64,000 nt of DNA from Trichocoleus sp. FACHB-40 (lineage in GTDB: Bacteria > Cyanobacteriota > Cyanobacteriia > Cyanobacteriales > FACHB-T130): NCBI RefSeq assembly GCF_014695915.1, contig NZ_JACJPF010000100.1, forward strand, positions 62,001 through 126,000. The letters run 5' to 3'. Made by a program: the position numbers and the translations under genes. The notes below the pieces were generated by a model. It had not been told where the DNA came from, searched no databases, and was given only the letters and a program-made list of their open reading frames with translations. This document shows positions 32,199-43,564 of the stretch, piece by piece; the stretch's first letter is position 1, and each line of letters begins with the position of its first letter.

Positions 32199-32295
32199 GG
32201 CTAGTCGTTAGTGGTTAAGGGTCAGTAGTCAGTAGTTCGTAGTATTAGTCAGTAGTTATTAGTTATTAGCTAAAAACTAGCGACTAATTGCTTCC

Positions 32296-32493
32296 TTACA
32301 AATACGGCAGCATCAAGCGTACATTTTCTTCATCGCGTTCATGCACCACCGCCATTTTAGACATCCGCCGTTTCCGGTCAGAAGACTTGTGCTGTAGCAA
32401 GTGGCTTTTAAAGGCTTTGCGGCGTACTATTTTACCGCTGCCAGTAGCTCTGAAACGCTTTGCCGCTGCTTTGCGGGTTTTCAGTTTGGGCAT
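32296..32493 (-). CDS. rpmI: Ribosomal protein bL35
   Basis: 65 residues, starting [20 protein letters not shown] and containing the typical [17 protein letters not shown] 50S subunit protein. Upstream of rplT with a gap of about 100 bases filled by short repeats. Confidence 0.98.
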
Positions 32494-32560
32494 AACCTTG
32501 TTTTAATTCGACACAATCTACAATATTAGCACTATTATGTGGTTTCCGACAAGTAATGGG

Positions 32561-32613
32561 GGATTGGGGCTGGATAAGACTTTTTCCCAATTCCCAATCC
32601 CCAATCCTTTTTT
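32561..32613 (+). terminator. Terminator-like hairpin made of CCCAATCC repeats
   Basis: GGATTGGGG (32561-32569) pairs with CCCCAATCC (32599-32607), followed by T6 on the plus strand. No plus-strand gene precedes it, so this may be chance use of the CCCAATCC repeat family, or the end of read-through RNA. Confidence 0.4.
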
Positions 32614-33239
32614 ATGTCATATAAGGATATTAACTAAGCAAATCAAACCTTCCATTCCCATTTTTGCAGTGTAGACAATCTGTCTGCCCTCAACACCTCT
32701 TAAATCTTCAAAATGTTTTTGAATACGAGTTACACCGCTATTTCTTAAAGCCGTTAAAAATTTCTATAGTTATTTTGACGTATATCCTGAAATCAAGAGT
32801 GACACTTTGCACACCAGTTAGGTTTCACAGGAGCCATCGGCTACTTCCTCTGTGTGCCACCGCTTAAGAAAAGCTAACTTTCACGCATCTACCTTAAGTC
32901 CATACCTTACTCAGCTTTACTACAACTTCATATACTTTCAGTATAACCACTTAGAGCTAGATTTCCTCCCAGGTAAAGGCTTTGGTGTTTTTCTTTGCCT
33001 GGGTGGGCGTTTTAAAGTTTATTGTTTTGATAAAGATTCAGTATAACTACTAGCATTTCGTTTGAAGAATATGTGAAGATTCCATGATAATGCGAAGTAA
33101 CCCTGAAAACAAATCACCGCAAGATTGTCAGAGTATCTAATTTCCGCAAAGATTTATAGCTTTTGTTGAACGCCAGAGATATACACGGTTTCTGTTGACA
33201 CGAAAATTGTAGCGATCGCGCTTTGGAACATTTCTCATA

Positions 33240-33272
33240 CAAACATCCAGCCTTCGGGAGGATGAATGTTTG
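33240..33272 (+). promoter_or_regulatory. Possible 5'-leader hairpin of the first PEP-CTERM gene
   Basis: AAACAT-CC-AG-CC-TTCG-GG-A-GG-ATGA-ATGTTT folds on the plus strand with a UUCG-type loop, about 60 bases ahead of the ATG. It could be a leader structure or the end of an upstream transcript. Confidence 0.3.
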
Positions 33273-33332
33273 CCTAATTGATTATTAGGAAACAATTGAC
33301 GTTATTTACCTAAATGCAGGAGAAAAATAGCC

Positions 33333-34565
33333 ATGAAATTACACTTGAGCCTTCCCGCAGCATTGATGGGATTATGCCTCAGTTTAGTAGTAACCGGAGA
33401 AGCACAAGCTGCCAGCTTCACCTTTACCAAGATTGCTGATAACAGCGGCTCGTTTAGCTCTTTTTTTGAAGCTCCCGTCATCAATAATCAAGGAACTGTC
33501 GCCTTCAGAACAAGCGAAGGAATTTTTACGGGAAATGGAGAAACAATTACTACCATTTCCAACACCACCGTTTCCTCGCAATCCGCCATTAGGGCCTTTA
33601 GTGATATCTCTATCAATGATGAAGGAAGCGTTGCCTTTAATGCTGATCTAGAGCCAATATTCATAATGACCGGCCCAGAAAGTGGCATTCAAATATTCAG
33701 GAAAGGCATTTTTACAAGCAACGGAACCACAACAAACATTATTAGGGAGTTGGCGACCGATGGACGTACCCGCGTTACCATCGATTCTCCATCAATCAAT
33801 AATCAAGGAACTGTCGCCTTCTCATATAGCTTTTTAGGAACCTCTGAATCAGATGACAGCACAGTTGTGACAACGAATGGAACCACCACCACGACTATTG
33901 CCCGTGGTAAAGCTCCTAATGTCGATGACACTCTCGGTCTTTCCGTCGAGTCCAACTCGCTCAATGATCAAGGAATCGTGGCTTTCAGAAGAGGTTTAAG
34001 TGGGGGAGGTAGCGGAATTTTCACAGGCAATGGCACCACAACAACTACCATTGCCGACACCAACGGCATCTTTAGTAACGTTGGTGCTGCCTCCATCAAC
34101 AACGAGGGAACAGTAGCCTTCAACGCTGACTTAGATGCCGGGGGAGAAGGCATCTTTACAGGCAACGGCACCACAACCAACACCATTGCCGATACTAGCG
34201 GCATCTTTAGCAACTTTGGTGCTGCCTCTATCAACGATGCAGGAATAGTAGCCTTTTTAGCGGGTCTAGATGCGGGAGGGACAGGTATCTTTACTGGCTC
34301 CAATCCTTTAACTGATAAGGTTATCAGCACTGGTGACACCTTATTTGGTTCCACCGTAACGTCGCTTGGCTTTTTCCGGGAAGGATTAAATAATCCCGGT
34401 CAGGTGGCGTTCTTTGCCAGCCTTGCTGATGGCACTACCGGCATTTTCCGTGCCGATCATCAGGGAGTGCCTGGCCAACCACCAAAAGATGTTCCGGAAC
34501 CTGCTTCTATGTTAGGTTTACTGGCATTTGGTACTTTCGGTGCTTTTGTCAAGCGGCGCAAATAG
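33333..34565 (+). CDS. PEP-CTERM protein with seven NxxGxxAF repeats, copy 1
   Basis: 410 residues. Signal peptide MKLHLSLPAALMGLCLSLVV ending at about AQA-A; seven repeat marks INNQGTVAF, INDEGSVAF, INNQGTVAF, LNDQGIVAF, INNEGTVAF, INDAGIVAF and LNNPGQVAF spaced roughly 45-60 residues, each followed by a GIFTGNG...TTTIAD type loop; C-terminal sorting tag VPEPASMLGLLAFGTFGAFV then RRK. PEP-CTERM tags are processed by an exosortase, so the product is expected to reach the cell surface or outside; biological role unknown. Start has GCAGGAGAAAAATAGCC ahead of the ATG. First of four tandem paralogues. Confidence 0.9.
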   Translation: MKLHLSLPAALMGLCLSLVVTGEAQAASFTFTKIADNSGSFSSFFEAPVINNQGTVAFRTSEGIFTGNGETITTISNTTVSSQSAIRAFSDISINDEGSVAFNADLEPIFIMTGPESGIQIFRKGIFTSNGTTTNIIRELATDGRTRVTIDSPSINNQGTVAFSYSFLGTSESDDSTVVTTNGTTTTTIARGKAPNVDDTLGLSVESNSLNDQGIVAFRRGLSGGGSGIFTGNGTTTTTIADTNGIFSNVGAASINNEGTVAFNADLDAGGEGIFTGNGTTTNTIADTSGIFSNFGAASINDAGIVAFLAGLDAGGTGIFTGSNPLTDKVISTGDTLFGSTVTSLGFFREGLNNPGQVAFFASLADGTTGIFRADHQGVPGQPPKDVPEPASMLGLLAFGTFGAFVKRRK

Positions 34566-34584
34566 AAATAAGAGAAAATTAGCC

Positions 34585-35868
34585 ATGAAATTACACTTAA
34601 GCGCATCGACTGTAATCATGGGCTTGTGTTTGGGCTTCCTGGCAGCTGGAGAAGCACAAGCTGCCAGTTTCACTTTTACAAAGATTGCCGATACAAGTGG
34701 CTCGTTTGACAGTTTTCGTGGCGAAGGCATTGGTGGTTACGAGCCAATTTCTGCCGCTCCCGCTATCAATAATCAAGGAACAGTAGCCTTTTTTGCTGTT
34801 CTAGATGCGGGGGGTGAAGGTATATTCACAGGCAACGGTATCACAACTACTACTATTATCGATACCAACACTCCCTTTCCGGTCGAATCCGCTGAGTCTA
34901 GCTCCGGTTTTTTCGTTGACAACCTTGGTTCTTTCTCCATCAATGATGTAGGTAACGTGGCTTTTAGCGGTTATTTTGGAACTTCAGGAATTTTTACCAG
35001 CGAATTAAAAAACGTAATAGAGGGTGCGGTTGGAGATAGTTTTACGCGCGTTTATTCTCCTTCGATCAATAACGTCGGAACTGTAGCTTTCTTACAAACA
35101 ATCTCAAGATTTAATGGGCTGACCAGGATTGTGACTGGTAAAGAATCGGTTGACGATTTTATTGCTTCTACACGTTTCTACACCGAACCAGTAGCTGTGG
35201 GTGTCTTTGAAAGCATCAGCACTCCTATGATTAATGATCAAGGAACTGTAGCCTTTAAAGCTGATGTATATCAGTCTGATAATGAAAGTGCTATAGCAAG
35301 TGGAATTTTCACAGGCAACGGCACAAGAGATGATGGAGAAATTATCACCAACACCATTGCTGACAGCAATGGTGCCTTTAACAGTTTTAGCGACCCCTCC
35401 ATTAATAATTTAGGAACCGTAGCCTTTAGTGCTGTCCTAGATACGGGACGTAGCGGAGTTTTTACGGGCAACGGCACGACAACGACCACTATTGCCGATA
35501 GCAGGGGCGCTTTTAACAGCTTTTTTAGTACCCCCTCAATTAATGATTTTGGAACAGTAGCTTTTTTGGCAGGCTTAGATGCTGGAGGAAGTGGCATTTT
35601 CACTGGAAACAATCCTCTCAAAGATAAGGTAATTGTTACTGGTGACACCCTATTTGGTTCGACAGTGCAAGAGTTAAGTTTTTACCGAGAGGGGTTGAAT
35701 AATTCCGGTCAGGTGGCGTTTTTTGCCAGTCTTGCTAATGGCACTGGCGGAATTTTTCGCGCCGATCCAATAGTAGTTGAACCACCAAAAGATGTTCCGG
35801 AACCTGCTTCCGGCTTAGGTTTACTGGCATTTGGTGCTTTGGGTGCTTTTGTCAAGCGGCGTAAATAG
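34585..35868 (+). CDS. PEP-CTERM protein with seven NxxGxxAF repeats, copy 2
   Basis: 427 residues from the ATG at 34585 (MKLHLSASTVIMG), chosen over an upstream in-frame ATG inside copy 1 because the signal peptide and leader match the other copies. Seven marks: INNQGTVAF, INDVGNVAF, INNVGTVAF, INDQGTVAF, INNLGTVAF, INDFGTVAF and LNNSGQVAF. Tag VPEPASGLGLLAFGALGAFV then RRK. The gap to copy 1 is only 19 bases and repeats the copy 1 leader (AAGAGAAAATTAGCC), so the genes are probably cotranscribed. Very similar to copy 3 over its full length. Confidence 0.9.
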   Translation: MKLHLSASTVIMGLCLGFLAAGEAQAASFTFTKIADTSGSFDSFRGEGIGGYEPISAAPAINNQGTVAFFAVLDAGGEGIFTGNGITTTTIIDTNTPFPVESAESSSGFFVDNLGSFSINDVGNVAFSGYFGTSGIFTSELKNVIEGAVGDSFTRVYSPSINNVGTVAFLQTISRFNGLTRIVTGKESVDDFIASTRFYTEPVAVGVFESISTPMINDQGTVAFKADVYQSDNESAIASGIFTGNGTRDDGEIITNTIADSNGAFNSFSDPSINNLGTVAFSAVLDTGRSGVFTGNGTTTTTIADSRGAFNSFFSTPSINDFGTVAFLAGLDAGGSGIFTGNNPLKDKVIVTGDTLFGSTVQELSFYREGLNNSGQVAFFASLANGTGGIFRADPIVVEPPKDVPEPASGLGLLAFGALGAFVKRRK

Positions 35869-35887
35869 AAATAGGAGAAAAATAGCC

Positions 35888-37180
35888 ATGAAATTACACT
35901 TGAGCCTTCCAGCAGCATTGATGGGTTTGTGTCTGGGGTTGCTAGGAACTGGAGAAGCACAAGCTGCCAGTTTCACTTTTACAAAGATTGCTGATACAAG
36001 TGGCTTTTTTGACAGTTTTCGTGGGGAAGGCATGGGTGATTACGAGCCAATTTTTGCCACTCCCGCTATCAATAATCAAGGCACCGTAGCTTTTTCGGCT
36101 TTTCTAGATGCAGGGGGTAAAGGTATCTTTACGGGCAACGGCACCACAACGACCAGCATTGCCAATACGAACAACCTTTTTGGCAGCCCCCCTGGCAGTC
36201 CAACGGTAGGCTATACTCTTAGTGAACTTGGTTCCTTCTCTATAAATGATGTAGGGAACGTAGCTTTTAGTGCTAATTTTGGAAGAACAGGAATTTTTAC
36301 CAGCGAATTACAAAACGAAATAGAGGGTGCGGCTGGAGATAGTTTTACGCGCATTGATTATCCCTCGATCAATAACGTCGGAACTGTAGCTTTCTTACGA
36401 ACAATCTCAAGGTTTAGTGGGCTGACCACAATTTTGACTGGTAAAGAATCGGTTGAGGGTGTTATTGCTTCCACCCGCTTCTATACCGAACCACCAGCTG
36501 CGGGTGTCTTTGAAAAGATTAGCGCGCCTATGATTAATGATCAAGGAACCGTAGTCTTTAGTGCTGACGTATATCAGTCTGATAGCTTCTATGATGACCT
36601 AAGTAGCGGCATTTTCACAGGCAACGGCACCAGAGATAATGGAGAAATTATCACCAACACCATTGCTGACAGCAATGGTGCCTTTAACAGTTTTAGCGAC
36701 CCCTCCATTAATAATTCAGGAACCGTAGCCTTTAGTGCTGCCCTAGATACGGGAAGTAGGGGAGTTTTTACGGGCAACGGCACGACAACAACCACTATTG
36801 CCGATAGCAGTGGCGCTTTTAACAGCTTTGGTACTCCCTCAATTAATGATTTTGGAACAGTGGCTTTTTTGGCAGGCTTAGATACGGGAGGAAGTGGCAT
36901 TTTCACTGGAAACAATCCTTTCAAAGATAAGGTAATTGTTACTGGTGACACCCTATTTGGTTCCACAGTGCAAGGGTTAAGTTTTTACCGAGAAGGGTTG
37001 AATAATTCCGGTCAGGTAGCGTTTTTTGCCAGTCTTGCTAATGGCACTAGCGGAATTTTTCGCGCCGATCCAATAGTAGTTGAACCGCCAAAAGATGTTC
37101 CGGAACCTGCTGGCTTGTTGGGTTTACTGGCTTTTGGTACTTTCGGTGCTACTTCAGTGATGAAACGCAAACAGAAATAG
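35888..37180 (+). CDS. PEP-CTERM protein with seven NxxGxxAF repeats, copy 3
   Basis: 430 residues from the ATG at 35888 (MKLHLSLPAALMGLCLGLLG). Seven marks: INNQGTVAF, INDVGNVAF, INNVGTVAF, INDQGTVVF, INNSGTVAF, INDFGTVAF and LNNSGQVAF. Tag VPEPAGLLGLLAFGTFGAT, ending MKRKQK rather than the VKRRK of copies 1 and 2. Signal peptide is nearly that of copy 1, while the body is nearly that of copy 2. Gap to copy 2 is 19 bases (AATAGGAGAAAAATAGCC before the ATG). Confidence 0.9.
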   Translation: MKLHLSLPAALMGLCLGLLGTGEAQAASFTFTKIADTSGFFDSFRGEGMGDYEPIFATPAINNQGTVAFSAFLDAGGKGIFTGNGTTTTSIANTNNLFGSPPGSPTVGYTLSELGSFSINDVGNVAFSANFGRTGIFTSELQNEIEGAAGDSFTRIDYPSINNVGTVAFLRTISRFSGLTTILTGKESVEGVIASTRFYTEPPAAGVFEKISAPMINDQGTVVFSADVYQSDSFYDDLSSGIFTGNGTRDNGEIITNTIADSNGAFNSFSDPSINNSGTVAFSAALDTGSRGVFTGNGTTTTTIADSSGAFNSFGTPSINDFGTVAFLAGLDTGGSGIFTGNNPFKDKVIVTGDTLFGSTVQGLSFYREGLNNSGQVAFFASLANGTSGIFRADPIVVEPPKDVPEPAGLLGLLAFGTFGATSVMKRKQK

Positions 37181-37218
37181 CAGATAAACAGTTACCTAAT
37201 TGCTGGATAAAAATAGCC

Positions 37219-38517
37219 ATGAAATTACACTTTAACATACCAGCAGCGTTGATGGGTTTGTGTCTGGGTTTGCTAGCAACTGGAGAAGCACAAGCTGCCA
37301 GTTTCAATTTTACAAAAATTGCTGACACCAACAGTTCTTTTAGCAGCTTTAGTAATAGTAACCCCAATGATAACTTCTTTGGTAGCCCTGCCCTTAATAA
37401 TACAGGAACCGTCGCCTTTTATGCTGCACTAGATGTGGGTGGCGAAGGGATATTCACGAGCAACGGCACAACAACTACCACCGTTGTTGACACTAATAAC
37501 AGCTATGGCAATCCTAGCGGAGAGCCTATATTTAATAGCTTTAGTTCCCTCTCCATTAATGACGCAAAAACCGTAGCCTTTTTTACTAAACTTCGCTCTA
37601 GTATATCTACTACATTAATTTTTAAGGGTGAGGATGAAACCAACTTTGAATTGGTTGTGATTGCTACCCCCCGAGAGGCCGTTTTCTTCCCCTCCATCAA
37701 TAACGCTGGAACTGTAGCTTTCTTAGAAGAATTCACAGGAGTTTTCGTGCAAACCAGGATTCGTATAAGTAACGGAGGCTCTATTTCCAGCCGTTCCTGC
37801 GGCGGCGTTTTTTGCCAGCCCATTGCACCTGGTGTCTTTGAAAGCATTAGCATTCCTATGCTCAACGATGCCGGAACCGTAGCCTTTAGAGGGGGCGTAT
37901 ATCAGTCTGATAATGAAAGTGATATAGCAGGTGGAATTTTCACAGGCAACGATAACCCATTTGGCTCTGAGCCTATTATCACGACCATTGCTGATACTAG
38001 CGGCATTTTTAGCGGTTTTAGCGACCCCTCCATTAATAATTCAGGCAATGTAGCCTTTATTGCGGGTCTAGATACGGGAAGTATCGGAGTTTTTACGGGC
38101 AACGGCACAACAACAACCACCATTGCTGATAGCAGTGGCGCTTTTAACAACTTTTTTAGTACTCCCTCAATTAATGATTTTGGAACAGTAGCTTTTTTGG
38201 CAGGCTTAGATGCTGGAGGAAGTGGCATTTTCACTGGAAACAATCCTCTCAAAGATAAGGTAACTGTTACTGGTGACACCCTATTTGGTTCGACAGTGCA
38301 AGAGTTAAGTTTTTACCGAGAGGGATTGAATAATTCCGGTCAGGTGGCGTTTTTTGCCAGTCTTGCTAATGGCACTAGCGGGATTTTTCGCGCCGATCCA
38401 ATAGTAGTTGAACCGCCAAAAGATGTTCCGGAGCCTGCTGGCTTTTTGGGGTTATGGGCGGTTGGTGTATGGAGTGCAACTTCAGCACTAAAGCGCAAAC
38501 AGAAACAGCCTTCTTAA
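37219..38517 (+). CDS. PEP-CTERM protein with seven NxxGxxAF repeats, copy 4
   Basis: 432 residues. Seven marks: LNNTGTVAF, INDAKTVAF (glycine replaced by Lys), INNAGTVAF, LNDAGTVAF, INNSGNVAF, INDFGTVAF and LNNSGQVAF. The first half diverges from the other copies and has a Cys pair (SRSCGGVFCQP), while the second half is nearly identical to copy 2, including the STPSINDFGTVAFLAGLDAG segment. Tag VPEPAGFLGLWAVGVWSATS then KRKQKQPS. The sorting helix is less regular than in copies 1-3. Gap to copy 3 is 38 bases. Confidence 0.9.
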   Translation: MKLHFNIPAALMGLCLGLLATGEAQAASFNFTKIADTNSSFSSFSNSNPNDNFFGSPALNNTGTVAFYAALDVGGEGIFTSNGTTTTTVVDTNNSYGNPSGEPIFNSFSSLSINDAKTVAFFTKLRSSISTTLIFKGEDETNFELVVIATPREAVFFPSINNAGTVAFLEEFTGVFVQTRIRISNGGSISSRSCGGVFCQPIAPGVFESISIPMLNDAGTVAFRGGVYQSDNESDIAGGIFTGNDNPFGSEPIITTIADTSGIFSGFSDPSINNSGNVAFIAGLDTGSIGVFTGNGTTTTTIADSSGAFNNFFSTPSINDFGTVAFLAGLDAGGSGIFTGNNPLKDKVTVTGDTLFGSTVQELSFYREGLNNSGQVAFFASLANGTSGIFRADPIVVEPPKDVPEPAGFLGLWAVGVWSATSALKRKQKQPS

Positions 38518-38581: not shown

Positions 38582-39319
38582 ATGGCTACCTTAAGAAAAA
38601 CATTTTCAGCCTTAACCTTCAGCACAATCTGCTCAGTTTCTTTATCTACGCTGATGGCACCTGAAAGTGTGCAGGCTGCTACATTGACCAAATTAACTTT
38701 CGATGAGCTACCGACTCAACCAGTAGATGATTTAAGTTTTAAGGGAGTCACCTTTGATTTCAAGGTAGATGGAATAGACTCAACTGCTGCCACCTACAAT
38801 GTTGTAAGAACTTGGGATCTATCAGAAATAGGAGGTCTCCCGCCAGGAACTCTACTCTATAATTTGGATTTATCACCCCCCGTCTTAGCAACCGATGCCC
38901 CTGGTATCCTTACACTTGATTTCACCATGCCGACGGCAGAACTTATGTTCGACGTGGCAAGGCTAGTGAGTTTTCTTGAGCCTATGCCTACATTTACTAT
39001 TGAACTCTTTAATGAGGCGTTAAGTTCTATTAGCATCCAGCAGGTGATTCTGGATGAAGACACAATCGGCATTATTTTCCCCTCTCCGATAAGAGCGGCT
39101 GTTGTGGGTAAAACTTTTGCCTATAGCGGAACTTCAGTAAAACGGGCAGTTATAGATTTCAGTAACACAGGTTCAGTTGGATTTGACAACCTAACTTATC
39201 AAGTTGCCACTCAAACCACTCCGGTTCCCGAACCTGCTTCAGTGTTGGGTTTATTAGCCTTTGGTGCTTTGGGTGCAACGAAAGTAATGAAGCGCAAGCA
39301 AATTAACTCCGCATCCTAG
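38582..39319 (+). CDS. PEP-CTERM protein, unrelated body
   Basis: 245 residues from the ATG at 38582 (MATLRKTFSALTFSTICSVS), preceded by TTTGGAGAAATAACTCGT. Signal peptide to about VQAA, then a beta-rich body (LTFDELPTQPVDDLSFKGVT, DGILTLDFTMPTAELMFD-like, GSVGFDNLTYQV) resembling secreted PEP-CTERM lectin-like or choice-of-anchor domains, no NxxGxxAF repeats, and a tag VPEPASVLGLLAFGALGATK then VMKRKQ. It probably shares the exosortase route with the four genes upstream. Its 3' end overlaps the convergent helicase gene by 17 bases. Confidence 0.85.
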   Translation: MATLRKTFSALTFSTICSVSLSTLMAPESVQAATLTKLTFDELPTQPVDDLSFKGVTFDFKVDGIDSTAATYNVVRTWDLSEIGGLPPGTLLYNLDLSPPVLATDAPGILTLDFTMPTAELMFDVARLVSFLEPMPTFTIELFNEALSSISIQQVILDEDTIGIIFPSPIRAAVVGKTFAYSGTSVKRAVIDFSNTGSVGFDNLTYQVATQTTPVPEPASVLGLLAFGALGATKVMKRKQINSAS

Positions 39320-41702: not shown

Positions 41703-41746
41703 GGAAGGATGGCTAATGGCTAATGGCTAATGGCTGATGGCTTTTG

Positions 41747-41766
41747 AACAAGCGAGCAATTAGCAA
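41747..41766. repeat. Exact 20-base dispersed repeat, copy 1
   Basis: AACAAGCGAGCAATTAGCAA, found again as its exact reverse complement at 59917-59936. It lies in a repeat-rich gap between divergent genes. Confidence 0.7.
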
Positions 41767-41782
41767 TGGACAACGGACAAAA

Positions 41783-43564
41783 ATGAATCAATCTATTAAT
41801 TTCTTTCTACATTATTTAGCGCTGGCTGCGGTAATTGGTGTGGGAGCTGCTTTGCGGTTTTGGCATCTCGACCTGAAACCTCTTTGGTTGGATGAGGTAA
41901 TTACGGCGTTATTTAGCTTGGGACGCACCTATGATGACGTACCGCTAAATGTAGCTTTTCCCCTCTCAACATTAGAGCAAATTTTCACGCTTAACCCAGA
42001 AGTCACATGGTCGGAAATTGCACAAACACTTGCTACTCAGTCTACCCATCCTCCCTTATTTTTTTGCTTAATGCACAGCTGGCTTTCCTGGTTAAACTCA
42101 GTTGATGCCGATGCTTTAAAGTCGTGGGTGTGGGCTGTGCGATCGCTTCCAGCAATATTTGGAGTAATTGCGATCGCGGCAATTTACTGGCTGGGTAGCG
42201 TTGCTTTCTCCAGAACCACTGGTTTAATTACCGCCGCTATAATGGCTGTTTCCCCTTTTGGAGTTTACCTTTCCCAAGAGGCAAGACACTATACTTTGCC
42301 AGTATTACTAATTACCTTAGCTCTTTTAGGATTAATTCAAATCCAGCAAAACCGGGAAAAGGGTATTTCAACACAAGTCCTTGTTTGTCTAGCCTGGGGA
42401 ATATTTAACAGCATTGGTTTCTACGTCCACTACTTTTTTATCCTCGCTTTCATCGCCCAAATCTTCGCCCTTATTTTCATGCAAGTTACAAGGCTTCATG
42501 GGATATCCCCAACTTCCTTTAACGATGGGCGCGGCAAAACTAAGAATATAAGACTTTTATTTTTACCTCTTGCCTTTGCTTGCTTGCCTTTTTTATTCTA
42601 TCTGCCGTGGTTGCAAGTTTTAATGGCACATTTCAACCGCCCAGAAACCAGTTGGCTACCTTCTCCACATAATATTGCTCCCCTATATCAAACTCTTGCT
42701 GGCTGGCTGGTGATGGTGGTTTCTCTACCAGTAGAAAACCAACCTCTCTGGATTGCAGTTACAAATGGACTGCTGATGCTTCTATTTGGTGTTTGGCTCT
42801 TAAAATACGTTATTTTTGATGCTTTCAGGGTAAAGTCAAAATTTATTCCCAATATAAGTCGTTATTGGGCAATTTTAACTTTTGTTATTTTCAGCCTGTG
42901 TGTGCTGCTCCAATTCTTCGCTGTTATCTACCTTTTGGACAAAGATATCACTATTGCTCCTCGTTATAACTTTGTTTATTATCCCGCTATGTGCGCTATT
43001 TTGGGAGCTATTTTTACTATTCATCTGAGCAAGGTAAAAATTAAAAAGGCAACCGGATATAGAAACGCGAATGGCTTCTTTACATTTTACTTTTTAGTTT
43101 CCTTTATAAGTTGTGTGTTTGTGGTTTTTAACCTAACCTTTCAAAAACCCTTCAACCCGCAGCGAGTCGCCCAGAACATGAACATAGAACCTGATGCTGG
43201 TTTGATGGTTGTGGTGGGATACGAAAGTTCTCAGGATGTAGCGTTGGGATTAAGCTTTGCACTAGCACTCGACAAACTACGGACACCTAATATAGATGCT
43301 TTAGAGTCGAAGCGATCGCTTGAAAATGAAAAAGCGTATTTTGCTTTCTTAGACAGAAAAACTGGTTATGATAACGTTTGGCAAGAGGTGTCTGTGCTCC
43401 AAACTCCCTTAGAAAAACCGCTCAACTTGTGGGTGGTTGCCCCTGGACTCAAGCGGAGGGATTATCCCCAAGATTTAGCCCTTTCTGATAAATACACTTG
43501 TAATATTGAGCAAACTGAACATTATCGGATCGGGGTTCCGTATCAACTGTATCGGTGTCGTTAG
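41783..43564 (+). CDS. GT-C/GT39-type membrane glycosyltransferase
   Basis: 593 residues from the ATG at 41783 (MNQSINFFLHYLALAAVIGV); an earlier TTG in repeat sequence was rejected. Many membrane helices (about ten or more), with the first luminal loop carrying the acidic motif KPLWLDEVITALF typical of PMT/ArnT-like GT-C enzymes, and SQEARHYTLPV further on. The C-terminal about 120 residues are soluble. Such enzymes move sugars from polyprenyl-phosphate donors onto lipids or proteins; acceptor unknown. Could modify surface polysaccharide, an inference from class only. Confidence 0.82.
   Translation: MNQSINFFLHYLALAAVIGVGAALRFWHLDLKPLWLDEVITALFSLGRTYDDVPLNVAFPLSTLEQIFTLNPEVTWSEIAQTLATQSTHPPLFFCLMHSWLSWLNSVDADALKSWVWAVRSLPAIFGVIAIAAIYWLGSVAFSRTTGLITAAIMAVSPFGVYLSQEARHYTLPVLLITLALLGLIQIQQNREKGISTQVLVCLAWGIFNSIGFYVHYFFILAFIAQIFALIFMQVTRLHGISPTSFNDGRGKTKNIRLLFLPLAFACLPFLFYLPWLQVLMAHFNRPETSWLPSPHNIAPLYQTLAGWLVMVVSLPVENQPLWIAVTNGLLMLLFGVWLLKYVIFDAFRVKSKFIPNISRYWAILTFVIFSLCVLLQFFAVIYLLDKDITIAPRYNFVYYPAMCAILGAIFTIHLSKVKIKKATGYRNANGFFTFYFLVSFISCVFVVFNLTFQKPFNPQRVAQNMNIEPDAGLMVVVGYESSQDVALGLSFALALDKLRTPNIDALESKRSLENEKAYFAFLDRKTGYDNVWQEVSVLQTPLEKPLNLWVVAPGLKRRDYPQDLALSDKYTCNIEQTEHYRIGVPYQLYRCR

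Follow-up and report, generated by a model that had tools for sequence, protein, structure and literature searches.

Four tandem NxxGxxAF-repeat proteins of a cyanobacterium with a predicted seven-bladed β-propeller fold

Introduction

What do four adjacent genes encode when each product carries a series of NxxGxxAF repeats between a signal peptide and a PEP-CTERM-like end, and how did four of them come to lie side by side? This question is raised by a locus of Trichocoleus sp. FACHB-40 within the 64,000-nucleotide stretch of DNA analyzed here (the window). An earlier note on the locus, whose products are referred to as A to D, proposed a seven-bladed β-propeller exposed at the cell surface, with a possible part in adhesion or sheath interaction.

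The family of A-D, which the note did not name, is already catalogued, as TIGR05002 in NCBIfam and DUF7453 (PF24251) in Pfam, no function being known for either entry. The NCBIfam entry (choice-of-anchor tandem repeat NxxGxxAF-containing protein) is named after the same motif as that of A-D; its model describes a single repeat, and ring closure by split end repeats, as considered below for A-D, lies outside the model. Pfam likewise assigns no function to DUF7453, which is shared with A-D.

Results and discussion

Layout of the array and family assignment

The four genes were adjacent, head to tail, and all on the plus strand (Table 1). For paralogue B, the ATG was chosen as the start over a TTG at 34528. 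The description of the locus as four tandem PEP-CTERM paralogues was borne out for the four open reading frames, and for the tag it was certain in A and B, dependent on NCBIfam in C, and below the cut-offs in D. A scan for promoters and terminators gave no excess over shuffled sequences (12 against 11.1 and 8 against 7.9, respectively), so that an operon structure would rest on gene spacing only. No open reading frame of at least 90 amino acids was listed at 32199-33332 of the window. Antisense frames of 125-128 amino acids were found opposite the later blades of each copy, and are most likely a side effect of the codon composition of the repeat.

Table 1. Positions of the array, its parts, and associated features (in the window, unless a relative is named)
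Feature	Position	Strand	Description
Paralogue A	33333..34565	+	410 aa; Sec signal peptide, half-repeat (FTFTKIAD...), seven NxxGxxAF repeats, VPEP tag
A-B spacer	34566..34584	+	19 nt; A/G-rich ribosome-site-like stretch AAGAGAAAATTAGCC-ATG; read directly
Paralogue B	34585..35868	+	427 aa; architecture as in A; seven exact marks, VPEP tag
B-C spacer	35869-35887		19 nt; A/G-rich stretch before ATG, similar to A-B spacer
Paralogue C	35888..37180	+	430 aa; architecture as in A; six exact marks and NDQGTVVF
C-D spacer	37181-37218		38 nt; A/G-rich stretch before ATG, similar to A-B spacer
Paralogue D	37219..38517	+	432 aa; architecture as in A; six exact marks and NDAKTVAF; tag-like end
B tract matching D	35538..35691 (B), 38169-38322 (D)	+	29 consecutive polymorphic third positions identical; gene-conversion-like
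B tract matching C	35346..35451 (B), 36652-36757 (C)	+	26 consecutive polymorphic third positions identical
Antisense frames	33968-34354, 35271-35648, 36589-36966, 37902-38279	-	125-128 aa; opposite later blades
Unrelated PEP-CTERM protein	38582..39319	+	245 aa from ATG at 38582; directly downstream of array
Same protein in two relatives	L091:9644-10414, L092:7540-8271		Kept in place
Tandem PEP-CTERM pair in relatives	L091:5503-6886, L092:4639-6049		Immediately upstream of the propeller genes
Membrane glycosyltransferase-like protein	41744-43564		Polytopic; conserved near array
Gene ends of untagged homologues	L019 7164, L020 7122, L022 7155, L018 7086, L023 7095, L015 7841		Stop shortly past last blade (mostly Fischerella group)

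The scores of A, B, C, and D were 131.7, 152.9, 149.3, and 151.9 bits with TIGR05002 (cut-off: 50), with seven matching stretches in each protein, and 85.4, 121.3, 111.1, and 93.9 bits with DUF7453 (gathering cut-off: 26.2), respectively. All of the 20 aligned homologues described below also matched TIGR05002. TIGR05002 repeats were not found elsewhere in the genome, all 23 matches falling in A-D. DUF7453 was present in 10 of the 292 genomes sampled from the phylum; for the phylum to which a planctomycete relative belongs, the count was 11 of 59 sampled genomes.

Number and spacing of the repeats

Exact N..G..AF marks numbered 7, 7, 6, and 6 in A, B, C, and D, respectively, and shuffled versions of the proteins contained 0.04-0.06 on average (maximum, 2). 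The seventh mark of C and D was off by one residue (2 of the 28 marks). Therefore, the claim of exactly seven repeats in each protein was correct for A and B, whereas it applies to C and D only when one-residue variants are counted. The distance from mark to mark was 42-61 residues, with a mean of approximately 51, in agreement with the spacing of about 50 residues noted previously.

Seven repeats had also been expected of homologues, and seven marks in register were observed in 20 of 20 cyanobacterial homologues aligned over their full length, a set that includes A-D and was picked by similarity to B and the presence of at least three marks, and is thus not a blind sample. The asparagine of the mark was conserved at 139 of the 140 positions in this set, which comprises proteins from Fischerella, Westiellopsis, Pelatocladus, Calothrix, Amazonocrinis, and others. 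Two longer relatives outside the set (L025 and L037) had seven units by the repeat profile, and 3-6 units were detectable in weaker, more distant cyanobacterial relatives (L026, L029, L033, L038, and L041). When applied to DUF7453 proteins of planctomycetes, the repeat profile from cyanobacteria detected only 2-3 units.

A repeat split between the two ends, and the predicted ring

The repeat profile (45 positions) was built from internal repeats only. The half-repeat of A-D, which opens with F(T/N)FTKIAD right behind the signal peptide, matched positions 31-45, and the last repeat stopped at about position 26-28; together, the two fragments form one whole repeat. The N-terminal match was better than all 500 shuffles in each of A-D. 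Among the other 16 homologues, six beat all 500 shuffles and eight had 2-14 shuffles as good, while the match was not significant in L024 and L031 (31 and 271 of the 500 shuffles as good, respectively). A repeat divided between both ends is what closure of the ring through an N-terminal strand would predict, and such a role would also account for FTFTKIAD being among the most conserved stretches in spite of carrying no mark. This strand, next to the signal peptide, would pair into the seventh blade and thereby shut the ring.

The earlier note had called for structure prediction of one copy, and a propeller, not another fold, was predicted for both A and B. The AlphaFold2 models, each from 20 aligned sequences, had pLDDT values of 83.7 and 83.6 and pTM values of 0.81 and 0.82, respectively; confidence was low in the signal peptide, in the tag, and in some loops. 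The strands of the A model consisted of residues 29-36, then six groups of four, and a final group of three; strand 29-36 would join the last blade, giving seven four-stranded blades. Structural alignment (VIA-align) covered residues ~26-378 of A and ~26-398 of B, i.e., the whole predicted ring, with Z-scores of 21.5 (rmsd 3.2, 270 aligned) and 21.2 (rmsd 3.4, 291 aligned), respectively. Foldseek TM-scores were modest (~0.4-0.5 by query length), and generic propeller matches were the only ones obtained from a library of viral structures. A sequence search of the PDB with the alignment profile matched no chain at E-values up to 1, so that, with no sequence-related solved structure, the fold rests on prediction from the 20-row alignment.

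The modeled seven four-stranded blades, the Z-scores of ~21 to seven-bladed propellers, and the repeat number fixed in the aligned cyanobacterial homologues all favor the proposed fold, and A-D very probably form a closed seven-bladed β-propeller with one NxxGxxAF repeat per blade. An open solenoid or a string of small β domains with no closed ring, to which the shallow alignment behind the predicted ring and the lack of a relative of known structure leave some room, is highly improbable in view of the pTM values of the two models, their full-length alignment to seven-bladed propellers, the constancy of seven repeats, and the one repeat split between both protein ends. The fold thus supported, a closed ring with a split repeat, shows where the TIGR05002/DUF7453 domain starts and ends, which makes it possible to produce the intact domain for binding assays.

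The top structural targets were an S9-peptidase propeller and a Pyrococcus protease propeller. These and related protease propellers (5yzn, 2gop, and 1ve6) were the best matches over the whole predicted ring (Z ~20-21.5), at ~13% identity, but A-D are without a peptidase domain (α/β-hydrolase) behind the propeller. Membership of the S9 peptidases was rejected: A-D end ~30 residues past the last blade, and no peptidase match was found in Pfam. The WD40 and Gβ propellers WDR5, Tup1, and Gβ (Z 18.6-19.6 against the A and B models) consist of seven four-stranded blades, similar to the predicted fold of A-D, and their ring is also closed by an N-terminal strand. On the other hand, the WD40 repeat signature differs from that of A-D, and no WD40 model was present among the Pfam matches at E-values up to 0.1, so that this family was also discarded.

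Export and the C-terminal tag

A Sec signal peptide was recognized by eye in A-D (a basic start, a hydrophobic core, and an AQA-A cleavage-like site). The PEP-CTERM tags of A and B scored above the cut-offs of both Pfam and NCBIfam, and that of C above the NCBIfam cut-off only (16.8 versus 16). The C-terminus of D scored below both models, but still consists of VPEP, a hydrophobic stretch, and a basic tail. The genome encodes two CrtA-type cyanoexosortases (296 and 249 bits; cut-off, 150) and one CrtB-type (456 bits; cut-off, 300), located in C30, C66, and C86 of the genome (G000), none adjoining the array; at least ten PEP-CTERM matches were found in the genome. Judging from the signal peptides, the tags, and these exosortases, it is likely that A-D are exported with exosortase processing. 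Export would proceed by Sec, with the VPEP-hydrophobic-basic tail as a hold in the cytoplasmic membrane up to processing by a cyanoexosortase, after which the propeller may reach the outer surface or the exopolysaccharide. A-D are concrete candidate cargo for work on cyanobacterial exosortases.

The tag was absent in six homologues (L015, L018, L019, L020, L022, and L023), and no VPEP-like tail was present in any frame of the ~200 bases downstream. A frameshifted tag was thereby ruled out, and the tags are truly missing in these proteins, so that exosortase display cannot be a general rule for the propeller. The untagged proteins belong mostly to the Fischerella group and stop shortly past the last blade (Table 1). 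Their close relatives L016 and L017 retain a PEA-type tail, indicating that the anchor was lost or changed with the propeller unchanged.

Possible roles of the propeller

The conserved propeller shape does not reveal function. In Nostoc punctiforme, crtB is required for motility, biofilm, and scytonemin; hormogonia of the deletion mutant cannot adhere to their own polysaccharide, and its exoproteome is depleted of PEP-CTERM proteins (PMC12188702). PEP-CTERM proteins as a class have been associated with exopolysaccharide (PMC1569441). From this phenotype and this association, an exported module binding the sheath or exopolysaccharide appears the most likely role. By analogy with other PEP-CTERM proteins, we place binding of a surface or polysaccharide by A-D at somewhat better than even; the exported propeller would be a rigid module with no catalytic activity that binds a polysaccharide or surface partner. 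Both the surface location and the binding of a ligand are presumed by this analogy.

A different role, as periplasmic or outer-face helpers (an assembly scaffold, or metal or pigment handling) instead of adhesins, is unlikely but has precedents. ScyE of N. punctiforme, a cyanobacterial protein of the β-propeller clan with a PEP-CTERM domain and in this respect like A-D (likened by description), belongs to the scytonemin cluster, unlike A-D (PMC4870267), and zinc uptake involves the PEP-CTERM exoprotein ZepA (PMC10957091). The occurrence of untagged propeller homologues also fits a helper. However, no metal or pigment genes were recognized near the array in the stretches read, or in the two related genomes described below, and no conserved metal-ligand cluster was noticed among the invariant residues, most of which are structural (N, G, F, A, and I).

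Several seven-bladed propellers are lyases, and the aligned folds included oligogalacturonate lyase (Z 18.9-19.1) and the ulvan lyase PL25 (Z 19.1). Nevertheless, these matches were no stronger than those to WD40 and Gβ propellers, no enzyme family was matched in Pfam or NCBIfam, and the propeller has no invariant set of His, Tyr, Arg, or Lys; a polysaccharide-acting enzyme is, therefore, distinctly improbable.

History of the array

The locus was found in the same setting in two genomes (G294 and G295) of one other genus of the same family, with upstream genes including that of ribosomal protein L20, and downstream genes for PEP-CTERM, helicase, and membrane glycosyltransferase-like proteins. 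The copy number was one in G294, two in G295, and four in the window, and this series at one locus provides a ready comparison for the effect of extra copies. In the tree, support was 100/100 for A with the first copy of G295, 94/95 for the B-C pair, and 88/92 for D joined to B and C.

The synonymous difference between B and D was 0.45-0.66 in blades 1-4 versus 0.04 in blade 6, and D differed from the B/C pair much more in blades 1-4 than in blades 5-7. Runs of identical polymorphic third positions (Table 1) were significant by the longest-run test for B-D (p ~0.0002) and B-C (p ~0.003). Since selection at the protein level would not reduce the synonymous difference so locally, the pattern is more simply explained by conversion or unequal exchange. 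The locus is conserved, but its expansion is specific to this lineage, and B, C, and D have probably undergone gene conversion. The four copies would have arisen by stepwise tandem duplication and been partly homogenized by conversion, so that they differ from one another in blades 1-4, whereas B, C, and D are much more alike in blades 5-7.

The same conversion-like tracts (B-D and B-C), the far higher divergence of blades 1-4 between D and the B/C pair, and the variable copy number between related genomes may be read as signs of a store for surface variants, in which recombination among copies shuffles blades and alters the binding face. This is improbable: every copy is a complete gene with its own start site, with no silent cassette, conversion of tandem repeats needs no selected role, and the species is represented by one genome. 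Still more doubtful is the specific form in which the array generates surface-propeller variants, blades 5-7 being shared by conversion and blades 1-4 diverging and being swapped among copies; if true, a different sheath-binding face would be produced in each cell line. Returning to duplication and conversion as the origin of the array, we regard as moderately probable the overall scheme in which A-D are secreted, exosortase-processed seven-bladed disks that bind a surface or polysaccharide.

Neighboring genes

Directly downstream of the array, a PEP-CTERM protein unrelated to A-D is encoded, and it is kept in place in two relatives, in which an extra tandem PEP-CTERM pair also lies immediately upstream of the propeller genes. 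The polytopic membrane protein encoded farther downstream weakly matched archaeosortase-associated STT3 and Agl23, and is possibly relevant to the glycosylation of exported proteins.
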